Shown piece after piece: positions 6,201-43,604 of a DNA stretch of 63,781 nt; position 1 is the first letter of the stretch, and every line of letters begins with the position of its first letter. The notes under the pieces are model-generated. The model searched no databases and had not been told where the DNA came from. It was given only the letters and a program-made list of their open reading frames with translations. Source of the DNA: Candidatus Coproplasma stercoripullorum (lineage in GTDB: Bacteria > Bacillota > Clostridia > Christensenellales > Borkfalkiaceae); contig DVHB01000036.1 in the NCBI GenBank assembly GCA_018712405.1, forward strand, positions 1-63,781, written 5' to 3'. The translations under genes and the position numbers were made by a program.

Positions 6201-9200
6201 GTCTTTCGGCAAATATCGATACAAATACGTCCGTAGGTAATTACCCTATTGTTCTCACAAATAAAATGGAGGGCTGTTATGTAATTATCTATGAGGTAAG
6301 TAATCGTCTTTACGAGGTTACGCCTGCTTCAATTGAAGTAAATGTAACTCCTTCTGATAATCTTATTTATACGGGTATAAATCAGTTCAGTGACGCGTTT
6401 GATGCAACTGCAAATACTGCAGATGCAGAAGATGATAAAACTGTAACGTGGCAGTTCAGCACTGATGACCGAACTTATTCAGACAGCGTTGAGCTCAAGA
6501 ACGCCGACACATATACCGTATATTATAAGGTAAGCGATCCCGACGGTAACCATAACGACGCTTCTGGCAGCTTCACCGTTACTATCGGCAAGGCGACTTT
6601 GAATGTCACCGTTACGGGAAGTACGACGTATGGCGAAAATGCACCCTCAGATGCAAATTATGAGATCGGCGTGGGCGAAAACGAGCTCCAGGGCACAGAC
6701 AGAGTACAAAGCATAGGCCTTGTTGCGGGTGAAACATTCATCATAAACCATGAGTATTCCGTCGGTGATGACGCGGGCACATACCTGCTTACCATTACCG
6801 ATAATACAGACGGCGAATATCTTGCAAACTACACCATAACGTATACGCAGGGTACTGAAGACGGCGGCGAATACAGCGGCAGCCTTCTCACCGTAAACCA
6901 GCGCGAAATAACGCTGCAGATTGCAGATATCGATGTAGATTATGGCGATGAACCCGGAACACTCTCTCTCGCGTTGACCGGAGGCTCATTCTATAACGGG
7001 CACAGCGAGAGCAATTTCCTTGGTTATCTTTCGGTAAATTCTGAAAGCGATGGTACGGGTAGTGTCATAACGCCCAGCAACGAATTGGCACGCGGTACCT
7101 ATTACATAATCGGCAACGACGATAATACGGGTATTGCCGCTAATTATGCTATAACGTTTATCGGCGAAACATACGACGATTATGGCCTGTACCAGGTAGC
7201 GGTTACAACTATAAGCATTGTGGTGACGCCTCCCGATCCCGTTTATACCGGCGAAGAAAAGCCCGTTGTGGCAACTACCGCCACACCCAATGTTTCTTTC
7301 GAATATTCCTATGAAAAATGGGATGCCGAAACAGAAGCATGGATCGGATTAGGTGAAAATGTTGTGCCTACCGATGTGGGAACTTACAGAGTTACTATAG
7401 AATCTAAAAACGATAACTATAGCGTAAATGCCAGCCAGTCGGTAAATACTTTCTATATTACACCGGCGAAAATCACAAATGTAAGCGTGAGTGCTTACGG
7501 CGGGCAGTACGGAACGGAATACGACGGCGAAACGCATCGGGTTGCAACAGAATACAGTGCAACGACCGTAAACAATCAGGAAATCACATGGACTTTCAGC
7601 CTCGACGGAACTAATTACTACGGCATAGACGATGAAAATGTTCTGCTGAAAGATGTTCTGCGCGGCGAGGATGGTAATTACACCTATTACACCGTGCATT
7701 ACAGAGTAACAGCGCCCAATCACGGCGATATTACGGGAACGTTTAACGTAACGATAATTCCGCATACGATAACCATCGACTGGGCGGAGGAAGATTTCAC
7801 CTATAACGGTACGCAACAGACGGTAACCGCCACATACGACAGCTTTGAGGCGGATGATATAGCCCTTGAAGTATCGCCCGTTGTAGATGACAGCGACTTC
7901 GCAACATTTGTAAATGTAGGCAATTATACGTTCAGAGTATCTTTTGCCGACGGCGACGGCGGCAGTTCCAACTATGAATTGCCCTTAGTTGCTACCAATT
8001 CTTACACCATGAAGGCGGCCTACGTTGAAGTTGCTCTTCAAATACCTTCGCAGGTGTATACGGGTGAAACGTTCAATACGCTCGTTGGCGAGAAAGGTGC
8101 CGACTACACCGTAAGCGGCGATATGTATTCACAGGGCGGTACCCCCGACGACCTCGGCATCGTTATCACAATAAACGGTACCGCGGGCGCAACAAATGTC
8201 GGCAGTTATGACGTAACGGCGTCATGGGATAACGATAACTATTCCGTAACTTTTGCCGACAGTACGTTTAACGGCGCGTTTGTGATCACGGCCGCAGGCA
8301 TCACGCAAGTTTCTGTTTCAGATAAAGTATTCGAATACAGCGGCGCTTCGCGGTTTGACGAAGCTGTTGCGGATATTTCCGCTTCAACGGTTGACGGAAC
8401 AGACGCAACATGGATTTACAGCTTGACCGACGGCAGCGAAACGGGCGAAGGGTATAACGAAAGCCTTGTGCTCCGCAATGTTCTGCGTGACGGCGATGAT
8501 GCGGTTATCGCCTACACCGTATACTACAAAATAACGGCCGATAATCACGCAGATTACTACGGTCAGTTTGAAGTGACCATCAACCCTGCCGAAGTTTCGG
8601 TCGTATGGTGTGACGACGATTTCACCTACACGGGCTCCGACCAGAGCGGCAGCGTCACCGCATATTATGTTGCTGCGCATGACGGCAATGTTGAAGTTAC
8701 GCTTGACACGGCGCTCACAAATGGCGGAGAGTTTACAGACGTAAACGGCGGCGCTGATTACAGTTTCACCGCAACGTTCGCCGGCGACGAGCTTGATAAT
8801 AACTACAGCCTTGCAAGCGCAACCGCAGATTTCCATATGCAAAAGGCGGAGCTTGTATGGGATACAGAGTTTACGTGGGCGGATACCGGCAACGAGAGCT
8901 ATGCGTGGATATACGGCGACGCCGATCTTATGGGCAACCGCACGTCCCCCGTGGCAGAGCTTGCAAATAACGGGAACTTCACCATAACGGAGGGCGAAGA
9001 GCAATACGGCATAACGGTTGAATATTTCACCGACGAAGATTGCCTCGTACCTTTCGGGGACGAATTCAGCTCTGCGACGAATGCGGGCGTATACTATGCG
9101 CGCGTAACCGTCCCCGCCACCGATAACTACGGCTATGGCGCGGATCTGACGGAAGACCTTGTTGTAATTTACAGCTTTGAAGTTGAACAGAAGGCAGTTT

Positions 9201-12200
9201 CCCTGGCGTGGTCGCCCAATTCCGAAGTGTTTGACGGTAGTCTCAAAACAAGCACTTTGAATTATCAGAGTTTCATGCAGATAGGCGAGCCGAGCGGCAC
9301 GGGTCCCGACAGCAGCACCGTAGATTTTACTTTTACAAATAATGCGGGCGAACATACGGCCACTATGTCGGCCACAAGCGTAGGCACTTACGGCGTTACC
9401 GTGACTCTCGATGACGAAAACGGTGCAAACTATAAGTGGTCGATATACGATAACGACGACGATGAAAGCAATGACGGCATAAGGAGCTTCTTTGTAAGCT
9501 GGAGCATCACTTCCGAAGAGAACGGGTGGGAAGTAACTCTCAGCATAACGGAGTGGACCTACGGCGAGTATGACGACGGCATAAATTACCCCGAGGCCGA
9601 CGCCGTATACGGTGAAGTGGAGTTCTATTTCACCGCAGCGGGCGCAAGCGAGCCTGCAGAGGGCAACTATAACAATCTCACTCATGTAATTCCTCAGAAT
9701 GCGGGCACCTATTGGGTCGTTGCCGTGGTAGAAGGCACCACAGACTACGGTTCCCTCTGGGCGACGGAGCAGTTTACCATACATCAGGCAACTGTAGAGG
9801 CGCCCGTAATGCCGGCAGGTGGCTGGAACTACACCGGTGATGCCCTCAGCGTTACTCTCGGCATAGATAACGGCCTCGATCTCAGCATCATGGCGATAAG
9901 CTCCATGAGCGACGGCTTAAGCGCCTCGGCCGACGGACAGTCGCGCACGTTCTCTGCAGTGAATGCGGGAAGCTATGATATAGGCATTTCGCTCACAAAC
10001 AGCAACTATACATGGGCCGGAGATGTGACGGCCGATGAAAACGGCGTTGTGTTCCTCACGTGGACGATAACGGGAGCCGTAAACAGCTGGACCGAAGAAC
10101 TTTCGATAGTTGGCTGGACGTACGGGCAAGCGCCCAGTGCGCCTGCGGCCGCATCGATGTACGGCGAGGTAGTGTTCACCTATTATCAGTTTGTTGACGG
10201 CGAATATGTAGCAGTCGAAGCGCCCGGATATCTCACAAATGCAGGCACCTACTATGTGACCGCAAAAGTTGATGCAAGTGCAGATGGCAACTACGGCGCG
10301 CTTGCAGAGACCGGTTATTATGAGTTCGATATTCTCAAGGCCGATTATTCGCAGAGCGATATCGAAGCAATAATCTGGAGCAACACCGTCGTTGAATACA
10401 CGGGTCAGCCCCAGTCGCCCATAGCGGTAAATCTGCCCGCAGGCTTAGACGGGATCACGCTCGGCTATGAGGTCGAAGAGAGGACTGACGCGGGCACATA
10501 TACCCTTAAAGTAACGTTCTCGACTTCAAGCCCCAACTATAACGTACCTTCTGACGGCACTGTTGAATTTGAAATAACCGCTAAGGTTGTGGAGGTTGAT
10601 TGGTGTGAAGATAACTTCACTTACAACGGCGAAAATCAGAGCGGTTACGTTGCGGCAACTTACACCGATATAAACGGCGACGAACAGCCGCTTGAAATCA
10701 GTGTCAGCGGCGGCGAGTTCATATATGTGAACGAAGACGGCTACACCTTTACGGCAGCAATGCCCGAAGGCGTTACCAACTACGTGCTGCCCGAAGACGC
10801 TTCGGCCGTATTCCATATCCTGCCGGCAGAGGTGACGGTGACTATAGGCAATCAGTCGGCTACATACACAGGCAGCGACCTCTCGGGCGAGCTTGACGAC
10901 AGTATGTATGATGTCACCGCAGGTAAAGTTTATAACGACGACCTTGAAATAACGCTGTATATCACCTCGGGCGAGGCGGTAGCCGCAGGCCCCTACACGA
11001 TAGGCGGCACATCAGCAAACGCAAACTACAGCGTCACGTTCATTCCGGGCGTGTTCATGGTCGAAGGCCTCGGCATAGAGGTTGAAATCACCCCCGGCGG
11101 CGGCACGTTCGGCGGTGAAATAACCGAGGCGACCGCAGAGGTGGTTGGCGGTACGCCCGATGGCGTAACGCTCGCCATAACTTATACTGGCAGAGCCAAC
11201 GACGGCACGGAGTATGTGAACAGCGAATCAGCTCCTACGCAGGCAGGTACTTATACCGTGCGCGTGACCGTCGGAGGCAACACCAACTATTACATAAGCG
11301 GCATAGACGTCGCGACTATGATAATAGCCCGCGCATATGTGCAGCTGCCCGATATCGATTCAAAACCCTACAACGGCAGCGCACAGACGGCGGATATAGC
11401 TGACAATGCTCTCTATACCTTCGAGCAGGGCGACGACTGGATAGATGCCGGTTCTTACGAAATAGTGTTCACGCTTACCGACTCCAACAATTACCGTTGG
11501 GAGAGCGCAAGCGGCGATACCGCCACGGCGATATTCCAGATCACCCGCGCCGAAATCAGCGTAACGGCGCCCGTGGTTCCTTCGTCGGGTCAGCAGTACA
11601 CCTACGGCGACACTGTAAGCCCGAGCGGCTCAACGGTGTTGTCAGGCGGTCAGACAGTGACGTTCGCGCAACCTTATTATGTGTACTCGGCCGATCCGAA
11701 CAGCGGTTACACGGCTGCGGTTCCTACAGAAGTGGGAGTGTATTATGTTCGCGCGGCTGTCGCAGCGACGGATAATTATTCAGGCGCAACTTCCGGGTAT
11801 GTTATGTTCGAGATCGTTCGCGCAGAGGTGGAGTTGCCAAAACTTGAATATGAAACGTCCGTTTACGACGGCACCGAGCAGACCAACCTTCTGAGCGGAT
11901 ATATAAGCTCCGCCATGGCGATAGATATCGGGTCGCTCACCGCAACGACGGTGGAGAGCGGACTCGAGCTCCGCGCTACAGTTGTCGGCGTATATGAAAT
12001 CACCATAACGCTCAACGATTCGCACAACTATGTATGGGCGGGCGGCGAAGATACGCTTACGCTCACTTGGGAGATAACGCAAGCCACAGAAAACGCCGTC
12101 ACCGTAACGGTTACGGGCGGCGGCACGGTATACGGCAACGCGCTTGAAGTAGTTGTGGGCGCCGCGTTTGGCGAAGATGCGGCAACGCTTGCATGGTATG

Positions 12201-15007: not shown

Positions 15008-15073
15008 AAGGCATTTGCAGGCAAATAAAAAATAAGGTTTAATCCTTTACAATACCTTATAAACCCGATAAAA

Positions 15074-15112
15074 GCAACGGGCTGCCGTGAAAGCGGCAGC
15101 CCGTTGCTTTTT
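15074..15112 (+). terminator. Rho-independent terminator of the giant gene
   Basis: Perfect 14-bp stem: GCAACGGGCTGCCG (15074-15087) and its complement (15094-15107), six-base loop, then TTTTT. It lies 67 bp after the stop codon. Confidence 0.93.
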
Positions 15113-15175
15113 CATGCTTAGATTGTGCGGTTTGCGGTAATTTAACGGCAACAGAAAATGTATGTGTTTTCTGTA

Positions 15176-15204
15176 TTGATAATTTGTAACAGTTGTGGTG
15201 TAAT
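15176..15204 (+). promoter_or_regulatory. Promoter of the decayed LytTR locus
   Basis: TTGATA (15176-15181), 17-bp spacer, TGTAAT (15199-15204), about 105 bp before the response-regulator start. An inverted repeat ACAGAAAA/TTTTCTGT (15151-15174) lies just upstream and overlaps nothing else. Seen by pattern only. Confidence 0.45.
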
Positions 15205-15309
15205 GTCAAAAACGGCAGTTTTTTGTCGAGACGTACGCCGTGAGCATCCCTTTGTTTCGGGTAATTTTTCCGTGGGGCAGTTTATATGGCGGAGGACTAA
15301 CGGAGAAAA

Positions 15310-15756
15310 ATGGTTAAAGTTGTTATCGTTGAAGACAATCAGAGCGATGAGGACCAACTGAGGGATCACCTTTCGCGCTACGAGCGCGAAAACGGCGAAA
15401 GCTTTTTCATTACCGCCTATAAGAGCGCATTGGATTTTCTTTCGGCATATAAGGGCGACGCCGACATGATCTTTATGGATATAGAGTTGCCCGATATAAA
15501 CGGCATGGACGCGGCGCACAGACTGATATACCACACAGACGAGGGCGACTTCGAGGTGACGGGTGTGCTCTCCAAAGTAGAGGAAAAACTCATTCCGTTC
15601 GGTTTTTTCCGTTGCAATTATTGTTATCTCGTCAATATGAACAGGGTAGAGTCGGTCGATAAAGACAGCGTTATGGCAGGGGGGGATAGCCTTCAGATAA
15701 GCCGCTCCCGCAAAAAGGACTTTTTAAAGGCGCTTGCCGATTATTACGGGGGCTGA
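15310..15756 (+). CDS. LytTR response regulator with internal deletion
   Basis: 148 residues, where intact relatives such as the one at 34849 have about 240. Residues 1-68 are the first half of a receiver domain (acidic VEDN at 8-10, phosphoacceptor D57 in FMDIELP). At residue 69 the sequence jumps into the LytTR DNA-binding domain: AHRL.YH matches residues 154-160 of the intact paralogue, an in-frame loss of about 85 codons. The lost part holds the receiver's conserved Thr/Ser and Lys, so normal phosphorylation switching is unlikely. The LytTR half keeps TGVL, FFRCNYCYLVN and LQISRSRK. Start supported by GGAG 5 bp upstream. The reading frame is open, so a shortened, perhaps constitutive product is possible; I favour decay because both downstream genes are also damaged. 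Confidence 0.85.
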   Translation: MVKVVIVEDNQSDEDQLRDHLSRYERENGESFFITAYKSALDFLSAYKGDADMIFMDIELPDINGMDAAHRLIYHTDEGDFEVTGVLSKVEEKLIPFGFFRCNYCYLVNMNRVESVDKDSVMAGGDSLQISRSRKKDFLKALADYYGG

Positions 15757-15757
15757 T

Positions 15758-16445
15758 ATGACGCTTTTCAATTTCCTTACGGAAAAAATGTTTATATTCG
15801 ATATGCTGATAATCGCAGTTGCGCTGTGCGTGCGTTTCCCCGCCGTAGATTGTTCTGGCTGCGTTTTATAATCTCCGTGCCTGCGTGTGTCGCACTCTCG
15901 TATTTTCTGCCCCGCTGGATAACGATAGGCGGGGCGATAGGCAATATCATATGGTTTGCGGTCGACTTTGCGCTTATCGCCGCAGTCATAGCAATATGCC
16001 TCAGTCTCAGGCTGTGGAAAGTGTTTTTTGTCGCGTCGAGCTGCTATTTTATCCAGCATGGCGCCTTCTGTCTTGACAGGGTGATACGAGGGGCATTACC
16101 GATCAATGTAGGCAACTATTTCGTGCATTACGGATTTATCGCCCTCTTTCTCTTGGCGGTATGGCTTATATACTGGCGCAAGGTCACGTCGGAGTCGCTC
16201 GATTCGGTAAACTGGCTCGACGCCGTGGTGCTCATGTTCATTGCGCTCGCAGTGTGCATAGGCGTATCCTCGTTTTCGGACGACATCGAAGGGGACAGAG
16301 GCAGCGGCTAATTGCGCGCAAGTACGGCGGCGAAGTATCTTTCGTGCAGGAGGGCGACATATTCAACGTCAATGCCGTCTTCCCCTGCAGGGGACAGTCT
16401 GCCGGGCAGCCGGCCGAGAGCGCTTCGGCGGCGGAAAATGTCTGA
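15758..16445 (+). pseudogene. Remnant of a GHKL sensor histidine kinase
   Basis: Begins one base after the regulator stop, as expected for the partner kinase. The membrane half is recognisable in two frames: MTLFNFLTEK... up to LCVRFP, then a one-base loss near 15836-15842, then RRRLFWLRFI and several membrane segments, resembling the N-terminus of the intact kinase at 35561 (RSRMFWLKLF). After SSFSDDIEGDR at about 16300 it jumps, again out of frame, into the last 30 residues of the ATPase domain (RLIARKYGG, compare RMIVNKYGG in the paralogue). The histidine region and most of the ATPase domain, about 220 codons, are gone. It cannot make a working kinase. Sequencing error could explain the small frameshift but not the missing domain. 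Confidence 0.85.
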
Positions 16446-16474
16446 AACAATTGATAATATGATTGATTTATTAA

Positions 16475-16500
16475 GGCGGGCATTTTGCCCGCCTTTTTTT
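16475..16500 (+). terminator. Rho-independent terminator
   Basis: GGCGGGC (16475-16481) and GCCCGCC (16487-16493) with a five-base loop, followed by seven T. It ends the two-component remnant, 30 bp after its stop codon. Confidence 0.92.
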
Positions 16501-16726
16501 GCGTTTGCTCCTGAATCCCCCGTGCCTGCGGACTTTTTTAAGTCTTAAAACCGTGTAGGAATAAAATTCAGCCGCTTATGATTGTCGATATTGCGTTTTT
16601 TGTGTTTGTTTATAAAATTTAATGTGATAAAACAACACTGACGCGGCTCTAAAAGATTGGAAGTAACAGCATGCGCGTATTGCGCACAAAAATAAAGCTG
16701 ACAAAATATCTTAAGGAGGACAACAT

Positions 16727-18060
16727 ATGGCTAACAAGAGAAAGAGCAGAAGCGGCGCGGTTATGGGTATAGCGGTACTCATCGTGCTTTTGCTCGTTCT
16801 GAACGTTGCGGCTTCGCGGATGTCTGCCACCATTGCCATGGGCATAGGCAGGTTCACCAGCGATGCGCTCAACGAGGACACCGATTACACCGTAGAGAGC
16901 AACTATCTCGACGGGTTTGAGGCAAGCGTCGATATTATGAGCGAGGGCACCGTCCTGCTCAAAAACGACGTCATCGGCGGCGGGGAGGATAGCGATTCGC
17001 TCCGCTCGCAGCTTGAGGTGCCCTATAACCTCACATACGACTTTGAGGCAGGCACATTCTCTTTCACTGCGGTGGAAAACGCCGCTTATTACCGCGTATA
17101 TTTCTATAACGTTACAGAACCTTCGGAAGACCTCGGAAATACCGGTTATTTCCAGTCTGAAACGAAGGAGGTGGAACAGGAAAATCCTGACGGCACGACG
17201 AGCACTGTTACTGAGACCGAGTACCTCACCGATGAAAACGGCGACTATCTGTTGCAGCCGCTCGAAACCATACTTTCCCTCACGCCTACATACAGCAAGC
17301 GTTTTAACGCCCAGTACACCGATGAGAACGGCGACAGGCAGACTTACGAGGCCGGCGACACGGTAACTTTCGAGCTGCCCAACTCCAATATCGGCGGCGG
17401 CGAATACATAGTCGGTATAAGGGCGGGCGGCCCCATAGCTCTGTACACTATGTCCGATTATCTCGTTGACGAAGAGCCCACGACGCTTATTCTGCATAAC
17501 GTCGATCCTGAAATTTCCACCAGCACTGCGATGGACGGATTCTCTACTACTTTCTCGCAGTACGGCACTACCGAAACTACGGGCGGAATGGGAGGAACCA
17601 GCAATTCGATCGATACGAGCAACGTGGTGCTTGAAAATGACGGCATGATGTTTGAAATAGATAACGCCGATACATACTGCAGTGCAAACCCCGATACACA
17701 GCTCATATACTATATTACCGAAACCGAGGACGGCACCGAGTCCGACGCTGTCACCTTCTCTTATGAGAACATCAAAATGACCCGAAACGACAGCAACACT
17801 TTCTGCGGCTGGATAGAGGTGGAGCAGGGAACTGACGTTACCGAGGGCACCGCGAGCGTAAATAACTACATTACTCGCACTCCGGTCCCACCATGGAATA
17901 TCAGACGACGGGTTGGTTCTGGATTTCGGGACTCACCGAGGGGCAGACGTACTATCTGCACATTTATGTACCCGGTGACGACGGCGCAACGAGCTATGAC
18001 TCCGAGTATGTGACGGTAGAGTTTGTATACAGTGTGTTCACCGATTTTGAAGCGGTCTGA
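16727..18060 (+). pseudogene. Chimeric, frameshifted GH3-type membrane protein remnant
   Basis: Good ribosome binding site (AAGGAGG) before ATG 16727. Residues 1-81 match the opening of the reversed-order GH3 enzyme at 40524: membrane segment, then DTDY, then EGTVLLKND, the hallmark start of a GH3 C-terminal domain. Directly after that (about 16970) the expected NALPL and the rest of the enzyme are missing, and the frame continues as an unrelated extracellular protein with fibronectin-like strands (AAYYRVYFYNVTEP) rich in Thr, Glu and Asp. Near 17875 one base is lost: the open frame ends at 18013, while the phase-shifted frame continues naturally (TMEYQTTGWFWISGLTEGQ) to TGA at 18060. No catalytic aspartate remains. 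Most likely a deletion fusion of two neighbouring genes followed by a frameshift. The second protein's function is unknown. Confidence 0.75.
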
Positions 18061-18178
18061 TCTCCCGATCGCAACCAGGCGTTATTCTGACTGCACATGG
18101 TTTCTCGCTGATGAGAAGCTGCGTTAAAAACTTTGCGTCAGATGATGCCTGATTGATCGCATAGCGAAAACGACTCAT
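18038..18178 (-). CDS. Candidate small protein, 46 residues
   Basis: Starts MSRFRYAINQASSDAK. Ribosome binding site AAAGGAGGG lies 7 bp before ATG (18176-18178), better than many real genes here. The codons are less G/C-ended than in the neighbours. Its end overlaps the last 23 bp of the chimeric pseudogene on the opposite strand. I do not recognise it. A GC-rich hairpin (18198-18227) sits just upstream. It could be a genuine small gene, or a leftover of foreign DNA that came in when the locus decayed. Confidence 0.35.
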   Translation of the reverse strand: MSRFRYAINQASSDAKFLTQLLISEKPCAVRITPGCDREIRPLQNR

Positions 18179-18197
18179 TTCTTTTCCCTCCTTTTCA

Positions 18198-18227
18198 GCG
18201 GCCGGGCGCAGATTTGTGCCCGGCCGC
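18198..18227. repeat. GC-rich hairpin
   Basis: GCGGCCGGGC (18198-18207) pairs perfectly with GCCCGGCCGC (18218-18227). On the plus strand it is followed by AAAATTTTG, a poor T-run; on the minus strand it sits directly before the ribosome binding site of the 46-residue frame. It may act as a weak terminator of the pseudogene or as a leader stem. Confidence 0.5.
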
Positions 18228-18282
18228 AAAATTTTGAAATCGAAATCGATGAAATGCGTCGGTTTCGCCGGGAGGTTTAATC

Positions 18283-18351
18283 ATGCATATTTTATATGTA
18301 TATCATATCTATTTGTTATTTTACAAATGTGTTTTATGTGCTAATATATAG
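18283..18351 (+). CDS. Candidate hydrophobic peptide, 22 residues
   Basis: ATG at 18283 follows GGGAGG with a 6-7 bp spacer; the product begins MHILYVYHIYLLFYK, strongly hydrophobic, and stops at TAG 18349-18351, about 80 bp before the pyrophosphatase start. It could be a leader peptide or a small membrane peptide. Length is too short for confidence from sequence alone. Confidence 0.25.
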   Translation: MHILYVYHIYLLFYKCVLCANI

Positions 18352-18432
18352 GTATGATATATTACATTCTCTACGGATTTTGCCCTCGTTTTGCGGGTAT
18401 ATTCGGCAGAGGGGGAACTTACGGAGGTACAA

Positions 18433-34848: not shown

Positions 34849-35568
34849 ATGAGGAACATAGCAATTGTCGAAGACGATAACAACGATGCCGGTTTACTCA
34901 TTTCGTATATAGAGCGCTACTCCGCGGCGTCAGGCCAGAAGTTCAAAGTGTGGCGGTTTACAAACGCCGCCGATTTCCTTGAAAATTATAAGGCGGTATA
35001 CGCCGTGGTGTTCATGGATATACAGATGCCCAAAATGAACGGCATGAACGGCGCGGTGGAGCTCAGAAAGGTGGACAAGTCTGTTTCCATAATCTTTATA
35101 ACCAATCTCGTTCAGTATGCGCAGAAGGGATATGAAGTGGACGCCGTCGGCTTTTTGGTAAAGCCTGTCAGCTATTTCGATTTTTCGCTGAAGTTCCGCA
35201 AGGCGCTCGATATCTATGTGATGAACGAGGAGCGCAGCATAACCATTAACCACCGCAGCGGGCTATTCCGCTTTTCCACCGATAAGCTCATGTACGTGGA
35301 GATAATCGCCCACAGGCTCTATTATCACCTCATCGACGGCGACATAGAGATGACGGGCGTGCTTTCGGAAGTTGAGCGCGACCTTGCCGGGTACGGTTTT
35401 TTGCGGTGCAACAACTGTTATCTCGTCAATCCCAAATTTATCGTAAGCGTGCAGGGTTCGGAAGTGCAGGTGGGCAACCGCATGCTCCAGATAAGCCGTC
35501 CCCGCCGCGCGGCCTTTTTAACGGGCCTCGCCAACTGGTATGCAGGGCAGGGGAACAGGCATGATTGA
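34849..35568 (+). CDS. LytTR response regulator (intact)
   Basis: 239 residues. Receiver domain residues 1-120 with acidic pocket EDD (8-10), phosphoacceptor D57 in FMDIQMP, FITN and switch Lys in LVKPVSYF. LytTR DNA-binding domain from about 130 (FRFSTDKLMYVEIIAHRLYYH, MTGVLSEVE, FLRCNNCYLVN, LQISRPRR). AgrA/VirR-like, binding direct repeats upstream of targets. Overlaps the partner kinase by 8 bp. The two GH16 glucanases and a GH3 follow, so control of surface glycan degradation is a reasonable guess. Confidence 0.94.
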   Translation: MRNIAIVEDDNNDAGLLISYIERYSAASGQKFKVWRFTNAADFLENYKAVYAVVFMDIQMPKMNGMNGAVELRKVDKSVSIIFITNLVQYAQKGYEVDAVGFLVKPVSYFDFSLKFRKALDIYVMNEERSITINHRSGLFRFSTDKLMYVEIIAHRLYYHLIDGDIEMTGVLSEVERDLAGYGFLRCNNCYLVNPKFIVSVQGSEVQVGNRMLQISRPRRAAFLTGLANWYAGQGNRHD

Positions 35569-36931
35569 CGAAGTTGTTAAAATTTACCTCAACATAATAC
35601 TCGAATTTCTGCTGGAGCTGTACGTCTTTTACGTGCTCGCCATGTTCAGGTTCTACCGCTCGCGTATGTTTTGGCTCAAGCTCTTTTCGGGGCTTGTTGT
35701 GCTCGCGGGCATAGCCTTCGGCGCGGCGGTGTTTTATTACTATTTCGGCTCGAACTCATTCGGCAGGATAGCCGTGTATCTCGTGCTGTTCGCCGTCACC
35801 ACTGGCCACGCCTGCCTGTGCTTTTCCGAGGAAAAAAAGACGGTGCTCTTCGGCTGTTCCGTAGCTTACGCCGCGCAGAACCTCGCCTATAAGCTCTTTC
35901 TGATTTTCTATTGCGCGGGCGAGCAGTTGCGCATATTCGACAGCTGGGGTTCAAATTTCTCGCTCTTTTACCGCTTTATGTATTACGCCTTCTTTATAGC
36001 GGCGGCCGCAGCCATATACTTCTTCGCGATACGCCGGATAATAAGGCGTTTGGGGGAGAGCGCAATAGAATACCGAATGCTCGCGATATCCGTCATAGTG
36101 CTCGCGATAACTGTGATTTTATGCTCGGTGGAGGACGTGCATTTCGCGGCGCTCAGCACCGGCAGGGAAAACCGTTTCGATTCTTACGATATCTATGTGT
36201 TGCGGCAGGCGGGCAACGGCTTTTCCGTAGCGTGCTGCTTTATCGTGTTGCTGCTCATTGCAAAGACGCTCGTCGAGCGGCATCTGCAGAGAGAGGTCGA
36301 CTATCTGCAATATGCCGTCCGCCAGGGTGAGAAGCAGTTTGAGATAGCAAAAGACACCATAGATATGATAAATATTAAGTGCCACGACATAAAGTATAAA
36401 GTGAATTCCGTCATGTCGCAGAGCGGAAATATGTCCACCGACGTCATTGACGATCTGAACAAGAGCATTTCGATATACGATACGCGTGTAGCCACGGGCA
36501 ATAAGATCCTCGACGTAATTCTGACGGAAAAGAGCCTGTACTGCGAACAGAACGGCATCACTTTTTCGTGCATGGCCGACGGACAGAAGCTCTCGTTTAT
36601 CGAAAGCGGCGATCTTTACTGCCTGTTCGGCAACATAATAGACAATGCGCTCGAGGCCGTCAACAAGGTGCACGACAGGGAGCGCAGAGTCATCAATATC
36701 GTCATAAAAGAAAAGAGCGGTACGCTTGTCATTCAGGAGGAGAACTATTTTGAAGGCGAGCTTGAATTCAAAGACGGACTGCCGCAGACCACAAAAGGCG
36801 ATAAGGCGTATCATGGCTTCGGTACGCGCAGCATACGCATGATAGTAAACAAATACGGCGGCGCGTTCAGTACCCGCGCTGTGGACGGAGTTTTTTACTT
36901 AAATATCATTTTTTTGCCTGAACGGAGATAA
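35561..36931 (+). CDS. GHKL sensor histidine kinase (AgrC type)
   Basis: 456 residues. About seven membrane segments fill residues 1-230 (sensor), then a coiled dimerisation region with the phosphoacceptor His in KCHDIKYKVNSV, and an HATPase_c_5 domain (NIIDNALEAVNKV, GFGTRSIRMIVNKYGG). The open frame extends 21 bp further, but ATG 35561 gives a sensible N-terminus and overlaps the regulator end by 8 bp, typical for such pairs. Ligand unknown. It is the intact counterpart of the remnant at 15758. Confidence 0.93.
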   Translation: MIDEVVKIYLNIILEFLLELYVFYVLAMFRFYRSRMFWLKLFSGLVVLAGIAFGAAVFYYYFGSNSFGRIAVYLVLFAVTTGHACLCFSEEKKTVLFGCSVAYAAQNLAYKLFLIFYCAGEQLRIFDSWGSNFSLFYRFMYYAFFIAAAAAIYFFAIRRIIRRLGESAIEYRMLAISVIVLAITVILCSVEDVHFAALSTGRENRFDSYDIYVLRQAGNGFSVACCFIVLLLIAKTLVERHLQREVDYLQYAVRQGEKQFEIAKDTIDMINIKCHDIKYKVNSVMSQSGNMSTDVIDDLNKSISIYDTRVATGNKILDVILTEKSLYCEQNGITFSCMADGQKLSFIESGDLYCLFGNIIDNALEAVNKVHDRERRVINIVIKEKSGTLVIQEENYFEGELEFKDGLPQTTKGDKAYHGFGTRSIRMIVNKYGGAFSTRAVDGVFYLNIIFLPERR

Positions 36932-36967
36932 AAATTTACAAAATAAGTAATTAATTAGCAATCTGAG

Positions 36968-36997
36968 GAACGCCCATTGACTTCGGGCGTTCTTTTT
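36968..36997 (+). terminator. Terminator of the LytTR/GHKL operon
   Basis: GAACGCCC (36968-36975) and GGGCGTTC (36985-36992), nine-base loop, then TTTTT. Confidence 0.92.
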
Positions 36998-37060
36998 ATT
37001 ATATTGTAGTGGCAAAGGGGCCGCGCAGACGGCTGTGAAAACTGTTAGATGAAACTTTTA

Positions 37061-37098
37061 CAGGGGACGTCCCCTGTTTGCCTGCAGGGCAGGCAAAC
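37061..37098. repeat. Two abutting perfect palindromes before the GH16 gene
   Basis: CAGGGGACGTCCCCTG (37061-37076) is a perfect 16-bp palindrome. It shares its last base with GTTTGCCTGC (37076-37085), which pairs with GCAGGCAAAC (37089-37098) around a 3-base loop. The second hairpin ends 13 bp before the chosen start codon. They may be operators or an RNA stem controlling translation; no T-run follows. Confidence 0.65.
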
Positions 37099-37111
37099 AT
37101 ATGAATTTACT

Positions 37112-37888
37112 ATGAAATTTTCGGTAAAAATAATATCAGCCGCATGCGTCGCCGTTTTGGTTGCGGCCTCCTGCCTCCCCGGCTGCGGCAGAATTGCCCG
37201 CGGGATAGACGGCTCGGTTTCCGGCGTGCCGGACAGACTCACCAAAGAGGAGGAAATAATAGTAAACTTCGCCACCGGCGAAACCGGCGGCTTTTATGCC
37301 GCTCACAACTGGGCAAACTATAAGATGTTCAACTGCGAGTGGAGCAATAACAATGCCGTTATAGAAAACGGCGTGATGAACATGTCGGTCACAAAGGCTG
37401 AAGGGAGCACGCCGCACGGTTTTGATTATTACGGCGCCGAATACCGCTCGCCGGAATACTTCAGCTACGGTTTCTATTCGGTGTGCATGAAGGCCGCCGA
37501 CTGCTCTGGCGTGATATCCTCAATGTTCACATATACGGGCGATCCGTGGGACGAGATAGACATTGAAATCCTCGGCAAAAATATGACGCAGGTTCAGTTC
37601 AACTACTACACGAACGGCAAAGGCGGTCATGAGTATCTGTACAGCCTCGGCTTCGATGCGTCGGAGGAATTTCATGAATATGCCTTCGACTGGCAGCCGG
37701 ATTCCATAACCTGGTATGTCGACGGCAAGGCCATTTACAGGGCGACCGAAGATATTCCGTCGCATCCCCAGCAGTTTATAATGAATGTATGGAACTGTAA
37801 GGGCTACGACGGCTGGTCGGGAAAATTTGACGAAAGCTCGCTGCCTGCCACAGCGCAGTACAAGTGGCTGGCATACAGTCCCGCCTGA
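37112..37888 (+). CDS. GH16 endo-beta-glucanase lipoprotein
   Basis: 258 residues. Lipoprotein signal ending in CLPGC, so probably anchored outside the membrane. One GH16 (lichenase/laminarinase) domain with the catalytic motif DEIDIEILG near residue 147: the first Glu is the nucleophile and the last the acid/base. Cleaves beta-1,3 or mixed beta-1,3-1,4 glucans. An in-frame ATG at 37049 would add 21 residues across the palindromes and spoil the signal peptide, so I prefer 37112 even though neither has a strong ribosome binding site. First of three extracellular glucan-degrading genes after the LytTR system. Confidence 0.88.
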   Translation: MKFSVKIISAACVAVLVAASCLPGCGRIARGIDGSVSGVPDRLTKEEEIIVNFATGETGGFYAAHNWANYKMFNCEWSNNNAVIENGVMNMSVTKAEGSTPHGFDYYGAEYRSPEYFSYGFYSVCMKAADCSGVISSMFTYTGDPWDEIDIEILGKNMTQVQFNYYTNGKGGHEYLYSLGFDASEEFHEYAFDWQPDSITWYVDGKAIYRATEDIPSHPQQFIMNVWNCKGYDGWSGKFDESSLPATAQYKWLAYSPA

Positions 37889-37988
37889 TGCGGAAGCGTT
37901 TAAAATATCGATTAAATTTGTATCTTAAGTTGTCGGGGTGCATTCAGCCACGCCGATGACTGTAAAAAATTTATAGGGAGAAAAAACC

Positions 37989-40424
37989 ATGAGAAAAAAA
38001 CTATTGTATCTCTTGTCAGCTACGGCAATCGCGGCCACGCTTTCGGCGGGCTCGCTCATGCTCGCCGGCTGCGGCCCCCAGGGTAAGACTGACAACCTTA
38101 CCGACGAACCTTTGAATACAACCACGACGGTTGCAGACTGGTCGGAGGGGGAGGCTCCCGCCGTGTTCGAGTCGGACGGCTGGACAAACGGCAGTCCTTT
38201 CAACACACAGTGGACAGCTAACAATGTTATCTATGACAACGGCGTTGCAAAGCTCACTATAACCGATAACCCCAATGGTTCGGAGGAGACGTTTACCGAG
38301 TATTACGGCGGTGAAATGCGTACTTACCAGTATTTCGGTTACGGCGACTATGAAGTCAGCATGAAGCCCTCCAACAAACCCGGCACGGCAAGCACCTTCT
38401 TTACCTGCACAGGCAGTTACGATACCAACCCTCATACCGGACAGCCCAATCCCTGGGACGAAATAGATATAGAGTTCCTGGGTGAAGATACCACCAAGGT
38501 GCAGTTCAATTATTATGTTAACGGCGTGGGCGGACATGAATATATGTATGACCTCGGTTTCGACGCTTCGGAGGATTTCCATACATACGGTTTCCGCTGG
38601 ACGGAGGACTACATCACCTGGTTCGTTGACGGCGAGCCCGTATACAGGGTGAACGCGACCGAAAGCAGTCCCATGCCCTCTACCGCAGGCCGTGTGCTCA
38701 TGAATTATTGGTGCGGTTCTTCGGCGGCTGAAAACTGGATGGGTAAATTTGAAAATCCCGACGATAAGGGCCCCGAATACCAGTGGGTAAAGACCTCTGC
38801 CGAAGTTGACTGGGGAGAGATTCCCGAGCCCGTTGAAGTTGAGGAATATGAGGGCGACTGGTCCAAGATAGATGCCGCCTCCGTAGAATTCAGCAACAGC
38901 GACAACGGCGTCGGCACCGACTATAAGGTAACTCCTGCCGCCGACGGCAAGTCTGCGCAGATAACTTATACCAAGGCGGGCAATTACGATAACGTAAACT
39001 TCAACGCGTCCGAGGCTGCTGCAGAAAAGAACTGGATGCATCTGACTTTAAAGAATAACTCTTCTACGGCAACCAACAACATCCGTATCAATATCCGCAA
39101 TGCCGAAAATACCGCCACGATAAATGCATTTGGTTTCGGTAACGATTCGCTTTTAGTTACCAATGCCGGCGAAGGAACAACAATTTCGCTTTCGCCCAAC
39201 ATGACCATGGAGGTAGAGATCAAGTTCAACGGCATTGCCGGCAATGTGGAGCTCATGCTCGACTCCATGCAGGCTAACGTCGTTGAAAAAGCCAGCGATA
39301 TCACCATAAGCGATATCAAATTCGATATTCAGGGCGAGCTTGAGATACCTGAAACGCCAGTCGAAGACAACAACGGCGTTACTATAAACGGCCAGAAAGT
39401 CAAATTCGACGGAAACGTAGGCGGCCAGCCCTATGCCATCAATACCGACGAAGAGTCCAACTCCATGAACGTCACATATACGGCAGCGCAGGGCGAAAGC
39501 TACCATAATATAAAAGCCGATATAGCCGCCATAGCAAGCGATAAGAACATTTTCTCCGCAACAATTACAAACAACGGCGAAAATGTAGTCTCCGTCCGCG
39601 TCGATATTGTTGCATCGAGGGCTGTAAATGCCAATACGAACGTATGCAACCTCTCAGCCACGATGGACGGCGAGAGCGTCTATACAGATCTTGAATGGGG
39701 CGGCTCCATGTTTAATATCCCCGCAGGCGCGACTGTCGAGATAGAAGTGGTTTACGATACCTCATACGGCCCTTCAACCCTTCAGTTCCTCATCGATACG
39801 GCCACTTATGGCGATACGGCCACTCACGAGGGTGACGTGACCTTCTCGGAAATGGAATTTTCAGGCGAAGGCGAAGTGACAGATCCCGAACCTGAAGAGC
39901 CCATAACCCCTCCAGAGGGCGGCACGACCGAGGTTGATCTTGGCGCCGTTAAGGTGGAGGGCAACACCGTGGAGAACGGCGGCCCCTACACCGCGAAAGT
40001 TGAAGACGGAAAGCTTGGCGTAACTTATACCGAGGCAAAGGGTAATTCTTATCTCAACGTAAATCTCACCCAAGGCGCTATCGAAGTTGCCGCGCAGAAC
40101 AACGTTCTCACCGTTCAGGTCACAAATAACGGTACCGCAACGGTGGAGCTCAGGATAGACGTGATGACTGATACAAAGGTCAACAATACCAACGCCTGCA
40201 ATATTTCTGCGACCCAGGATGGCGTGGCAGTGCGAACCGATACCGATTGGGGCGGCTCGTTCTTCACGATAGAGGCCGGCAAAACCGTCACCATTCAGGT
40301 AGTTTATGACGGTGCAAGAACTATAACAGGCATACAGTTCCTCATCGATTCGTTTATGGGCACTGATACAACGCATGCGGGCAATATAACCATCGGCGAC
40401 ATGGCGTTCTTCAATCACGAGTAA
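37989..40424 (+). CDS. GH16 glucanase lipoprotein with three C-terminal modules
   Basis: 811 residues. Lipobox LMLAGC near residue 27, then a GH16 domain to about residue 285 with catalytic DEIDIEFLG near 157, closely related to the preceding enzyme (NYY.NG.GGHEY, LGFDASE.FH). Three beta-sandwich modules of about 150 residues follow (roughly 295-450, 465-640, 655-811), the last two clearly repeats of each other (NNG....RVDI, NVCNLSAT/NACNISAT, WGGS, LQFLIDT/IQFLIDS, DVTFSEM/NITIGDM). They look like carbohydrate-binding modules. GGGAG precedes ATG 37989. Likely holds glucan near the cell while the first domain cuts it. Acidic linkers with Pro and Glu separate modules. Confidence 0.9.
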   Translation: MRKKLLYLLSATAIAATLSAGSLMLAGCGPQGKTDNLTDEPLNTTTTVADWSEGEAPAVFESDGWTNGSPFNTQWTANNVIYDNGVAKLTITDNPNGSEETFTEYYGGEMRTYQYFGYGDYEVSMKPSNKPGTASTFFTCTGSYDTNPHTGQPNPWDEIDIEFLGEDTTKVQFNYYVNGVGGHEYMYDLGFDASEDFHTYGFRWTEDYITWFVDGEPVYRVNATESSPMPSTAGRVLMNYWCGSSAAENWMGKFENPDDKGPEYQWVKTSAEVDWGEIPEPVEVEEYEGDWSKIDAASVEFSNSDNGVGTDYKVTPAADGKSAQITYTKAGNYDNVNFNASEAAAEKNWMHLTLKNNSSTATNNIRINIRNAENTATINAFGFGNDSLLVTNAGEGTTISLSPNMTMEVEIKFNGIAGNVELMLDSMQANVVEKASDITISDIKFDIQGELEIPETPVEDNNGVTINGQKVKFDGNVGGQPYAINTDEESNSMNVTYTAAQGESYHNIKADIAAIASDKNIFSATITNNGENVVSVRVDIVASRAVNANTNVCNLSATMDGESVYTDLEWGGSMFNIPAGATVEIEVVYDTSYGPSTLQFLIDTATYGDTATHEGDVTFSEMEFSGEGEVTDPEPEEPITPPEGGTTEVDLGAVKVEGNTVENGGPYTAKVEDGKLGVTYTEAKGNSYLNVNLTQGAIEVAAQNNVLTVQVTNNGTATVELRIDVMTDTKVNNTNACNISATQDGVAVRTDTDWGGSFFTIEAGKTVTIQVVYDGARTITGIQFLIDSFMGTDTTHAGNITIGDMAFFNHE

Positions 40425-40464
40425 GCGACCAAGCAATCAACAAACGGCAATTCAACCAACTCTG

Positions 40465-40490
40465 CGCGCGGCCGCTGCCGCGGCCGCGCG
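40465..40490 (+). repeat. Intergenic hairpin between GH16 and GH3 genes
   Basis: CGCGCGGCCGC (40465-40475) pairs with GCGGCCGCGCG (40480-40490), loop TGCC, followed by TAAATT rather than a T-run. More likely a message-stabilising or partial-termination stem inside an operon than a full terminator. Confidence 0.6.
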
Positions 40491-40523
40491 TAAATTATCC
40501 GTATATAGAAAGGTGTGTAAATA

Positions 40524-43500
40524 ATGAAAACAAAAAAACTCGGCATAATAATTATTTCCGTAGCTATAGCGGTAATAGTTGTTTTTACCTTCTTCCTGAA
40601 TTACCTGTCGCTGACAAAGTTCGATAACATTTTCGAGCAGTTTATCGGAAAAACAGCTGATTCGACCCGCGGCGATACAAAGGGCGCCGATACCGACTAT
40701 GTAAAGAGCGATTTTGAAACGGCCTCCGATCTCTATGAATATGAAACCGATCTTGTATCGGAGATCGCAATGGAGGGCGCCACGCTCCTTAAAAACGACG
40801 GCAATGCGCTTCCTCTTGAAAAGGGCACGACTTTAAGTCTGTTCAGTCATTCTTCGGTTGACCTTGTGAGCGGCGGTTCGGGCTCCGGCTCCGGCAGCTT
40901 CGAACTCACGGTGAACCTGAAAGACGGCCTCGAGGCTGCCGGACTCAAAGTTAACGAACAGCTCTGGAATTTCTATGAAAGCGGAAACGGTTCAGACTAT
41001 GTTCGCGGAGTCGGCTCTATAAACTACGGCCGTGCGCTTGACTGGAACATAAACGAGTGCCCCTTAGGCGTAATTTTGCAGGAACCCGGAATGTATGATT
41101 CATTCAAAGACACCACGGCCGTGTTCGTGCTTTCCCGAACCGGCGGCGAGGGCGCCGACCTTGCCCGCGACATGGCGGCTTACGGCGGCGAGGCGGGGCA
41201 GCACTACCTTGAACCCGATGAGACCGAGCTCGAAATCATCGATTTCCTAAACCGCAACTTTGACGAGGTTATCCTGATAGTCAACACAAACAACGCCATG
41301 GAGCTCGGCTGGGTAGATGAGTTTGAAAATATCAAAGCCGTAGTAAACTTCCCCGGCGCGGGCAGAATGGGCGCATACGGCCTCGGCTATATGCTTACGG
41401 GCTATGATGCGGACGGCAACGAAATTTCCCCTTCCGGGCATCTCGTGGATACTTTCGTTTACGACAATTTTTCAGCCCCTGCAATGCAGAATATGGGCGA
41501 CTTCAACTACGAGGGCACCGATTACTATTACGTTACCTATTCTGAGAGCATATATGTAGGCTATAAGTACTACGAAACGAGGTACGAGGACGTCGTTCTC
41601 AACCAGGGCAATGCGGGCAGCTACGACTATTCCCGGACTGTGCTCTATCCCTTCGGCTACGGCCTTTCGTATACCGACTTCGAGTGGTCTGACTACAGCG
41701 TATCCGCTCCCGACGAAAACGGAGACATAACCGTTTCGCTCAACGTCAAAAATGTGGGCGGCCGTAACGGCAAAGATGTGGTTCAGGTGTATGTAAGCGT
41801 GCCCTATACCGAATACGACATCGAAAACGGGGTAGAAAAGTCCTCCGTCTCTCTTGTGGGCTTTCACAAGACGGCGAATCTTGCCCCCGGCGAGGATGAG
41901 GATGTGGAAATCACCGTCAACCTCGAGGACTTCGTGTCATATGATTCAAACAATGCAAAGACCTATATCCTGGAGGACGGCACCTATTATATAACTGCGG
42001 CGAGCGACGCGCACAAGGCACTCAACAATGTGCTCGTTGAAAAGGGCGTAAGCAACGCCGATCTGGATGCGGCAGGTGCGGTTCCCGCTTCAGAACATGT
42101 TGGCGACGCTTCGTTCGTCGGCACATATGTTCAGGAAACTTTCGACAGTACAACCTATTCTACCAGCCGCTATACCGGCGAAAAGATAACAAATCAGTTC
42201 GACGGCGCAGCTCTCACCGATACCGAATATCTCTCGCGTTCAGACTGGAGCGTGATGGATAACGACGGCCTGCGCTACGGCACCGCCTCCGACGTAGACA
42301 GCGGCGCCGAGATAGGCGGCAAGCAGTGGAGCCACTCCATAACTTCCGAACTCAAGGCCGCACTCGATTCCGACTCTTCCGGCAACCCTAACGAGGGTAA
42401 TGTTACCCAGACTTACGAATGGGGCGTGGACCACGGCATCGATCTCATCGATATGCGCGGCAAGGCTTATGACGACGAAGATTGGGATCTCCTCATCGAG
42501 CAGATAACGCTCGAAGAACTTGCGTTGCTCATCGACGAGAGCGGCTACTGCACTCCCGAAATAAAGTCGATAAATAAACCTAAGGTCACCGACCTCGACG
42601 GCCCTGCAGGCCTCAACCTCGTTGTCGGGCACGGTTCTGTAGACACCGGCGACGGCTTGAAGGCCATGACGTGGCCGAGCGAATATATGCTGGCTTGCAC
42701 CTGGAACGTCGATCTCGCCACTCAGATGGGTGAAGGCGTGGGCGAAGACGGCCTCCACGGCGGCGTGGTGGGCTGGTACGGTCCTGCCGTAAACATTCAC
42801 AGAACGGCTTTCGCCGGCAGGAACTTTGAGTATTATTCTGAGGACAGCTTCATAAGCGGCGAGTTCGGCAACGCTGTAGTTCAGGGCGCGGCGCGCAAGG
42901 GCATGTATGCATATCTTAAGCACTTTGCTCTTAACGACCAGGAGACCCATCGCGACCACCTCGGTATAGTCACTTGGGCGGACGAACAGACCATCCGCGA
43001 GATATATCTGAAGCCCTTTGAAATGACTGTCACCGACAATTATGTGGACGTAAAGTATAACGAGCCTATATATGATTCCAACGGCGAAATAACGGGTTAT
43101 ACCATGAAGACGGCCGAAAATATGCCTGCCGCTACAGGTATAATGTCGTCCTTCAACCGCATAGGCACGACCTGGGCCGGCGGCAGCTACAGCCTTCTTA
43201 CCGAAGTGCTGAGGGAGGAGTGGGGCTTTAACGGCTTCGTTCTTACCGACTACGAAGTTTCCAACTATATGTTCACCGGTCAGTGCCTTGCGGCGGGCGG
43301 CGACGCCAAGCTCAAAACGGTGGGGCTTTCGGGTAACTTCCTGTTCGGTTATTCGCTCGAGGGCAATGCCGAGGACCAGGCTTACGCGCACGAGGCTGCT
43401 CACCATATACTGTACACCGTGGTAAATTCCGCCGCGATGAACGGATATGTGCACGGCGTTGAATATGTAAACGGATTTGCCTACTACAAGATAATTCTTA

Positions 43501-43604
43501 TAGTGTGGGACGTTCTCGCTGCGGCGGGCGTGGCTGTGCTCATATTCTTCCTTGTAAAAAAGATTAAGCGCAACAGAATGATAAAGTCAGGCAACAACAG
43601 ATGA
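40524..43604 (+). CDS. Membrane GH3 glycosidase with reversed domain order
   Basis: 1,026 residues with a membrane segment at each end (about 8-28 and 990-1012). The usual C-terminal GH3 domain comes first (EIAMEGATLLKNDGNALPLEKG, residues 75-300), then a fibronectin-like domain (YPFGYGLSYTDFEWS, 375-500), and the TIM barrel last (VTDLDGPAGLN, AGRNFEYYSEDSF, KHFALNDQE), with catalytic Asp near 909 in VLTDYE. A few rumen and gut GH3 enzymes are known to have this reversed order. With both ends in the membrane, the catalytic part is displayed outside as a loop. AAGGTG lies upstream of ATG 40524. Probably trims oligosaccharides from the two GH16 enzymes. Confidence 0.9.
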   Translation: MKTKKLGIIIISVAIAVIVVFTFFLNYLSLTKFDNIFEQFIGKTADSTRGDTKGADTDYVKSDFETASDLYEYETDLVSEIAMEGATLLKNDGNALPLEKGTTLSLFSHSSVDLVSGGSGSGSGSFELTVNLKDGLEAAGLKVNEQLWNFYESGNGSDYVRGVGSINYGRALDWNINECPLGVILQEPGMYDSFKDTTAVFVLSRTGGEGADLARDMAAYGGEAGQHYLEPDETELEIIDFLNRNFDEVILIVNTNNAMELGWVDEFENIKAVVNFPGAGRMGAYGLGYMLTGYDADGNEISPSGHLVDTFVYDNFSAPAMQNMGDFNYEGTDYYYVTYSESIYVGYKYYETRYEDVVLNQGNAGSYDYSRTVLYPFGYGLSYTDFEWSDYSVSAPDENGDITVSLNVKNVGGRNGKDVVQVYVSVPYTEYDIENGVEKSSVSLVGFHKTANLAPGEDEDVEITVNLEDFVSYDSNNAKTYILEDGTYYITAASDAHKALNNVLVEKGVSNADLDAAGAVPASEHVGDASFVGTYVQETFDSTTYSTSRYTGEKITNQFDGAALTDTEYLSRSDWSVMDNDGLRYGTASDVDSGAEIGGKQWSHSITSELKAALDSDSSGNPNEGNVTQTYEWGVDHGIDLIDMRGKAYDDEDWDLLIEQITLEELALLIDESGYCTPEIKSINKPKVTDLDGPAGLNLVVGHGSVDTGDGLKAMTWPSEYMLACTWNVDLATQMGEGVGEDGLHGGVVGWYGPAVNIHRTAFAGRNFEYYSEDSFISGEFGNAVVQGAARKGMYAYLKHFALNDQETHRDHLGIVTWADEQTIREIYLKPFEMTVTDNYVDVKYNEPIYDSNGEITGYTMKTAENMPAATGIMSSFNRIGTTWAGGSYSLLTEVLREEWGFNGFVLTDYEVSNYMFTGQCLAAGGDAKLKTVGLSGNFLFGYSLEGNAEDQAYAHEAAHHILYTVVNSAAMNGYVHGVEYVNGFAYYKIILIVWDVLAAAGVAVLIFFLVKKIKRNRMIKSGNNR

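Follow-up and report, generated by a model that had tools for sequence, protein, structure and literature searches.

The window, i.e. the whole stretch of 63,781 nucleotides that was analysed, is one contig (DVHB01000036.1) of the assembly GCA_018712405.1 of Candidatus Coproplasma stercoripullorum, which totals 1.70 Mb in 130 contigs and is 82% complete. Between a gene for a giant surface-type protein and a pyrophosphatase gene it carries a cluster of three damaged genes, recognisable as a LytTR response regulator, a GHKL sensor kinase and the start of a glycoside hydrolase family 3 (GH3) gene, and further downstream a locus in which the same kinds of genes are intact. The features concerned are as follows.

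15008..18282, + strand: block without aligned counterpart in the sister genome G035, in which the pyrophosphatase gene comes next after the giant surface gene
15310..15756, + strand: probable LytTR response-regulator pseudogene, an open frame of 148 codons with 85 codons gone between receiver residue ~72 and the LytTR domain
15505..15525, + strand: in-frame deletion junction of the regulator, both flanks of which, in relatives, frequently code for similar short words (A-A-x-x-L, H-x-L)
15758..16445, + strand: probable GHKL sensor-kinase pseudogene, with a frameshift at ~15826-15840 and a deletion junction at ~16287-16305
16473..16495, + strand: terminator-like stem-loop after the kinase remnant
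16727..16972, + strand: start of a domain-permuted GH3 gene, from a hydrophobic segment to EGTVLLKND
16973..18060, + strand: remnant joined in frame to the GH3 start and weakly similar to the mature portion of a predicted lipoprotein
34849..43604, + strand: intact paralogous locus with a LytTR regulator, a GHKL kinase, two GH16 genes and a permuted GH3 gene

The loss within the regulator is the most clearly delimited of the three. When the protein is aligned with its best full-length relatives, its residues 1-72 pair with residues 1-72 and its residues 69-148 with residues 154-233, an offset of 85 residues, and on a 237-position profile made from 85 full-length relatives the two halves occupy positions 2-74 and 156-234 in a single frame. 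Both results bear out the in-frame loss of about 85 codons at residue 69 that had been read from the sequence alone. The 148-residue product does not contain complete receiver and LytTR domains: its receiver scores 28.6 bits, under the Pfam cut-off of 30.2, and its LytTR domain scores 50.2 bits against a cut-off of 22.6, with a match that starts at profile position 18. As a deletion stays in frame in one out of three cases, no special cause is needed for this loss of 255 bases. The short words encoded on both flanks of the junction in relatives suggest a possible microhomology, which would fit a deletion between short repeats without proving one.

The kinase remnant is distributed over three frames altogether. 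Its start is read from 15758, its middle from 15826 to 16287 (profile positions 26-182) and its end from 16305 to 16397 (positions 401-431), and the ~218 positions in between, 183-400, are missing, among them most of the HATPase domain, of which only about the last 30 profile positions are left. No Pfam match was obtained in 15826-16308, and hence none to the HATPase domain of a GHKL histidine kinase. A frameshift near the start and a gap of this size are what had been described as a frameshift and the loss of about 220 codons, and that description holds. The stem-loop that follows is one of seven terminator-like sites in the region, compared with a mean of 4.0 (sd 2.1) in shuffled sequences, and a promoter scan found five candidates versus 5.1 in shuffles.

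The third gene is more complicated. Its first ~82 residues are collinear from residue 1 with the starts of permuted GH3 proteins (best E 2e-4, local ORF set), and many of these proteins have the EGTVLLKND motif in a comparable position. A 1037-position GH3 profile, however, found no match in the gene, its start included, and Pfam found no domain in 16727-18010, be it GH3 C, Fn3 or GH3 N. The sole non-self match of the tail at E < 1 in a BLAST search of the local ORF set is a predicted lipoprotein ORF of the genome G044 (E 0.003), which is 506 residues long, has what we read as a lipoprotein-type start and is the second gene after a GH3 gene. The match, 20 of 49 residues, starts a few residues past the presumed lipobox cysteine, and its E value is 5e-6 when the two sequences are compared directly, without composition correction or low-complexity filtering. 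Because a GH3-like start is thus followed by a non-GH3, lipoprotein-like remainder, the third junction probably joins two genes. Most likely, judging from these similarities, it fuses the GH3 start to a downstream lipoprotein gene, and the link is weaker than the findings on the regulator and the kinase. The gene had been described as a GH3-type protein without its middle, fused after EGTVLLKND and with one base lost: the GH3-like start, the motif and a further change of frame near 17880 were confirmed, while a GH3 remainder and a fusion within one gene were not. A single-sequence structure model of the tail is of low confidence (mean pLDDT 40.6), the tail has no match in 397 other family genomes, and a scan of a genome collection with the third gene gave 21 pattern matches, none of which was confirmed.

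The downstream locus at 34849-43604 invites comparison, and the sequence-only reading took the damaged cluster for its collapsed twin. A recent duplication followed by collapse would account for the same kinds of genes standing in the same order on the same strand ~17 kb apart, and the regulator, kinase and GH3 genes of the downstream locus are indeed open and full length, the last (40524-43604) with the permuted domain order C-FnIII-N. The order is the same only in part, since two GH16 genes, found in the intact locus alone, intervene between kinase and GH3. Nor is there the high identity along homologous parts that a recent duplicate would show: identity to the copy at 34849 is 37.5% and 53.8% for the two halves of the regulator, some copies in other genomes are closer to each half than that copy is, the GH3 start has no clear match to the GH3 at 40524 (E 0.66), and 15310-18060 has no 18-mer in common with the window outside 15001-18400. 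The twin explanation therefore retains next to no probability. With GH16 genes next to its GH3 gene, 34849-43604 may serve the use of beta-glucan, and from its gene content it looks like a self-regulated locus for this purpose.

The history of the site was traced through the pyrophosphatase gene, whose product, compared with a named collection, has its best identity, 97%, in uncultured Clostridia assemblies, and 66% to a Candidatus Borkfalkia. About 70 pyrophosphatase neighbourhoods were found, and among the eight examined at length, both neighbours of the cluster are present in G035 only. In that genome a relative of the giant surface gene, the pyrophosphatase gene (product 96% identical to that of the window) and relatives of the next three window genes follow one another in the same order; the first base that aligns comes after ~0.34 kb, and nothing left of the cluster aligns at the site. 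The segment 15008-18282 was thus either gained in the lineage of the window or wholly lost in G035. No intact version was found at this site in G035, nor did the whole third gene have any match in the 92 other genomes of a genus sample of 93 that includes the source genome. As no intact orthologue was found, the ancestral sequence and the sizes of the deletions are deduced from distant relatives. Searched against phage records, the DNA of the locus gave no match. The giant surface-type protein upstream (293-15007) is 4904 residues long and matches MBG_3 in 14 stretches (E 5e-9), and its relative at the same place in G035 has at least 4886 residues and is 53% identical over the last 1200 residues.

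Since the locus is known here from assemblies alone, the short forms might be products of the assembler, collapsed or chimeric sequence put together from mixed strains or paralogous copies, and the incompleteness and fragmentation of the genome, the large number of paralogous loci and the frameshifts that accompany the deletions would agree with such a fault. The words of assembler length in common with the compared loci that a collapse would leave were, however, not found. No 18-mer of 15310-18060 occurs in ten loci of the own genome, no 21-mer is common with the other genus loci compared, and there are no 12-mer repeats within the region. Elsewhere in the whole own assembly a similarity search returned only two short matches, of 75% and 82% identity. 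Similar collapses are moreover seen in other assemblies, although these are assemblies too. An assembly fault is on balance unlikely.

LytTR-GHKL-GH3 loci are numerous in the genus and unevenly distributed. Among the matches listed, LytTR matches were found in 45 of the 93 genomes, with 0-11 per genome. Their absence from 48 of the 93 genomes beside numbers of 10 to 11 in others points to a strong lineage-specific expansion, again among the matches listed. Where an intact regulator has at least 6 kb of downstream sequence, a kinase follows directly in 32 of 37 cases and a GH3 gene lies within 6 kb in 29 of 37. The regulators were counted in two surveys. The wider one gave, among the matches listed, 115 distinct regulator-like matches, namely 89 intact ones and 26 others, among them adjacent pairs that the script had merged, LytTR proteins that stand alone, other receivers and stretches truncated at an end. 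The narrower one covered 91 stretches, a subset of loci among the matches listed that includes seven regions selected for short or interrupted LytTR frames, and contained 96 distinct regulator matches: 82 intact, one end-cut and 13 others. Three of these 13 are receiver-only and were taken as other response regulators, one (L175) is whole but its first match comes late, and nine are broken. With the three receiver-only rows and the end-cut row set aside and L175 counted as whole, 92 family regulators remain, of which nine, the window copy included, are broken, a rate that is inflated since six of the nine come from the seven regions picked for short or interrupted frames.

In the own genome, five of the ten LytTR loci have a damaged or shortened member, the window locus included, and loci in other genomes are damaged in comparable ways.

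Contig C126 of the own genome, first locus: GH3 gene interrupted by stops between profile positions 616 and 715, where only 138 bases stand for an expected 98 positions
C126 of the own genome, second locus: frameshifted regulator and a GH3 remnant of profile positions 456-506 (51 positions)
C102 of the own genome: kinase reduced to profile positions 9-174
C18 of the own genome: kinase reduced to profile positions 218-428, the N-terminal part gone
G046:C17: kinase up to position 275, then GH3 position 918 within ~120 bases
G046:C18: regulator up to position 221, then GH3 position 823 within ~120 bases
G066:C6: regulator up to position 63, then GH3 position 890 within ~120 bases
G034:C26: kinase without its N-terminal part and GH3 without its first half

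A large gap within the regulator with both ends kept is found in the window copy alone among the regulators of both surveys, so the exact pattern of this regulator is unusual in the sample; the collapse of whole loci is not. The decay pattern had been called odd, and this is right for the gap inside the regulator; middles have been lost at other loci of the genus too, and gene starts are lost in some cases, as in the kinases of C18 and G034:C26, which have no N-terminal part.

Several further details were recorded at these loci. Positions 6437-15733 of the stretch L099, from C126, hold two neighbouring LytTR-kinase-GH3 loci, both damaged, and the GH3 remnant of the second seems to have kept its start, fused to an Fn3 part. 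In L182 (G066:C6, 4817-10995) an intact regulator-kinase pair is separated from another GH3 by scraps of a regulator (2-63), a GH3 (890-988) and a kinase (24-87), the remains of decayed loci. On its minus strand, L020 (G044:C62, 1336-1557), which lies outside the narrower survey, reads as a regulator fragment (profile positions 3-77) that may be a truncated copy.

The pieces of the cluster still look like coding sequence. In their own frames, the codon-bias log-odds of the remnants range from 0.16 to 0.36, compared with 0.26 to 0.38 for 13 intact window genes, on which the score was also trained. The remnants contain no in-frame stops within piece limits that we set at the frame changes. As 3.6% of the possible single changes in the six remnants (791 codons) would create a stop, the absence of stops implies, by our arithmetic and with equal rates assumed, a divergence of less than ~3.5% since the loss, and the decay therefore looks recent.

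We consider it very probable that the cluster is an ordinary group of pseudogenes, a lineage-specific locus that recently lost its function and is being eroded by deletions. Its members can still be recognised as homologues of intact genes, if weakly so in the tail of the third gene, and have lost their reading frame or essential domains; with similar wrecks in the own genome and in relatives, ordinary decay in a fast-changing gene family is the most likely cause. In the parent system a membrane GHKL kinase would have sensed a signal, probably a sugar, and the LytTR regulator would have turned on a cell-surface GH3 glycosidase, whose gene was presumably followed by that of a surface lipoprotein. 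Interstitial deletions would then have removed 255 bases from the regulator and ~650 bases from the kinase, and a third one, probably of at least 3 kb, would have run from the GH3 gene into the lipoprotein gene, with two small frameshifts on top of the three; ordinary slippage or recombination between short repeats may have produced them. What is observed are the gaps, the shifts of frame, the lack of the cluster at this site in the sole sister genome with both neighbours, and the other damaged loci; the loss of function, the size of the third deletion, the mechanism and the sugar-sensing role are our inferences.

One point against this reading is that the in-frame regulator junction fits a functional short form as well. 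The 148-residue regulator and the GH3-lipoprotein fusion would then be selected products, as in-frame junctions with intact starts in both and a LytTR domain well above its cut-off might indicate. On the other hand, the receiver falls below its cut-off and the LytTR match lacks the first profile positions, a frameshift has cut the fusion gene off from its own end, the partner kinase is destroyed, no other surveyed family regulator has such a deletion, and G035 has no locus at the same site, so that selected short products are most improbable. We also see a slight chance that damaged loci recur through rapid gain and truncation driven by a specific process, which would feed new fusion surface proteins and would often keep the beginning of a regulator or kinase with the end of a GH3 or surface protein; the driver could be, for example, dispersed paralogues that recombine with each other, or frequency-dependent selection acting against particular sugar-sensing surface systems.

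Ordinary decay also has close parallels. That inactive genes wear away through small deletions, under a deletional bias, is standard in bacteria (PMC5447742, which cites Mira et al. 2001). As in other deletion-eroded bacterial pseudogenes, several internal deletions and frameshifts have hit neighbouring dispensable genes whose remnants are recognisable; nothing essential differs, and the coding appearance of the pieces makes the decay seem young. LytTR regulator-GHKL histidine kinase systems are matched in domain types, gene order and adjacency, whereas the window receiver is without its second half, the LytTR domain without its beginning and the kinase without most of its catalytic domain. 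The C-FnIII-N order of permuted GH3 enzymes such as BrGH3A and GlyA1 (PMC11233000) is that of the intact GH3 at 40524-43604, and the first ~82 residues of the broken gene resemble their starts, but the broken copy itself has no GH3 domain that could be recognised. Among the titles and abstract openings of the top literature matches there was no account of such LytTR-GHKL-GH3 loci.

By itself the cluster, one more decaying operon, carries little weight. It does point, however, to a regulator-kinase-GH3 family with fast turnover in an uncultured gut Clostridia genus, through which the coming and going of sugar-use loci in host-associated bacteria can be studied. Neither the 148-residue regulator nor the GH3-lipoprotein fusion should be annotated as functional. 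Downstream of the decayed cluster, a short open frame on the minus strand (18038-18229), with an ATG near 18177 that is preceded by purine-rich sequence, may be due to chance.
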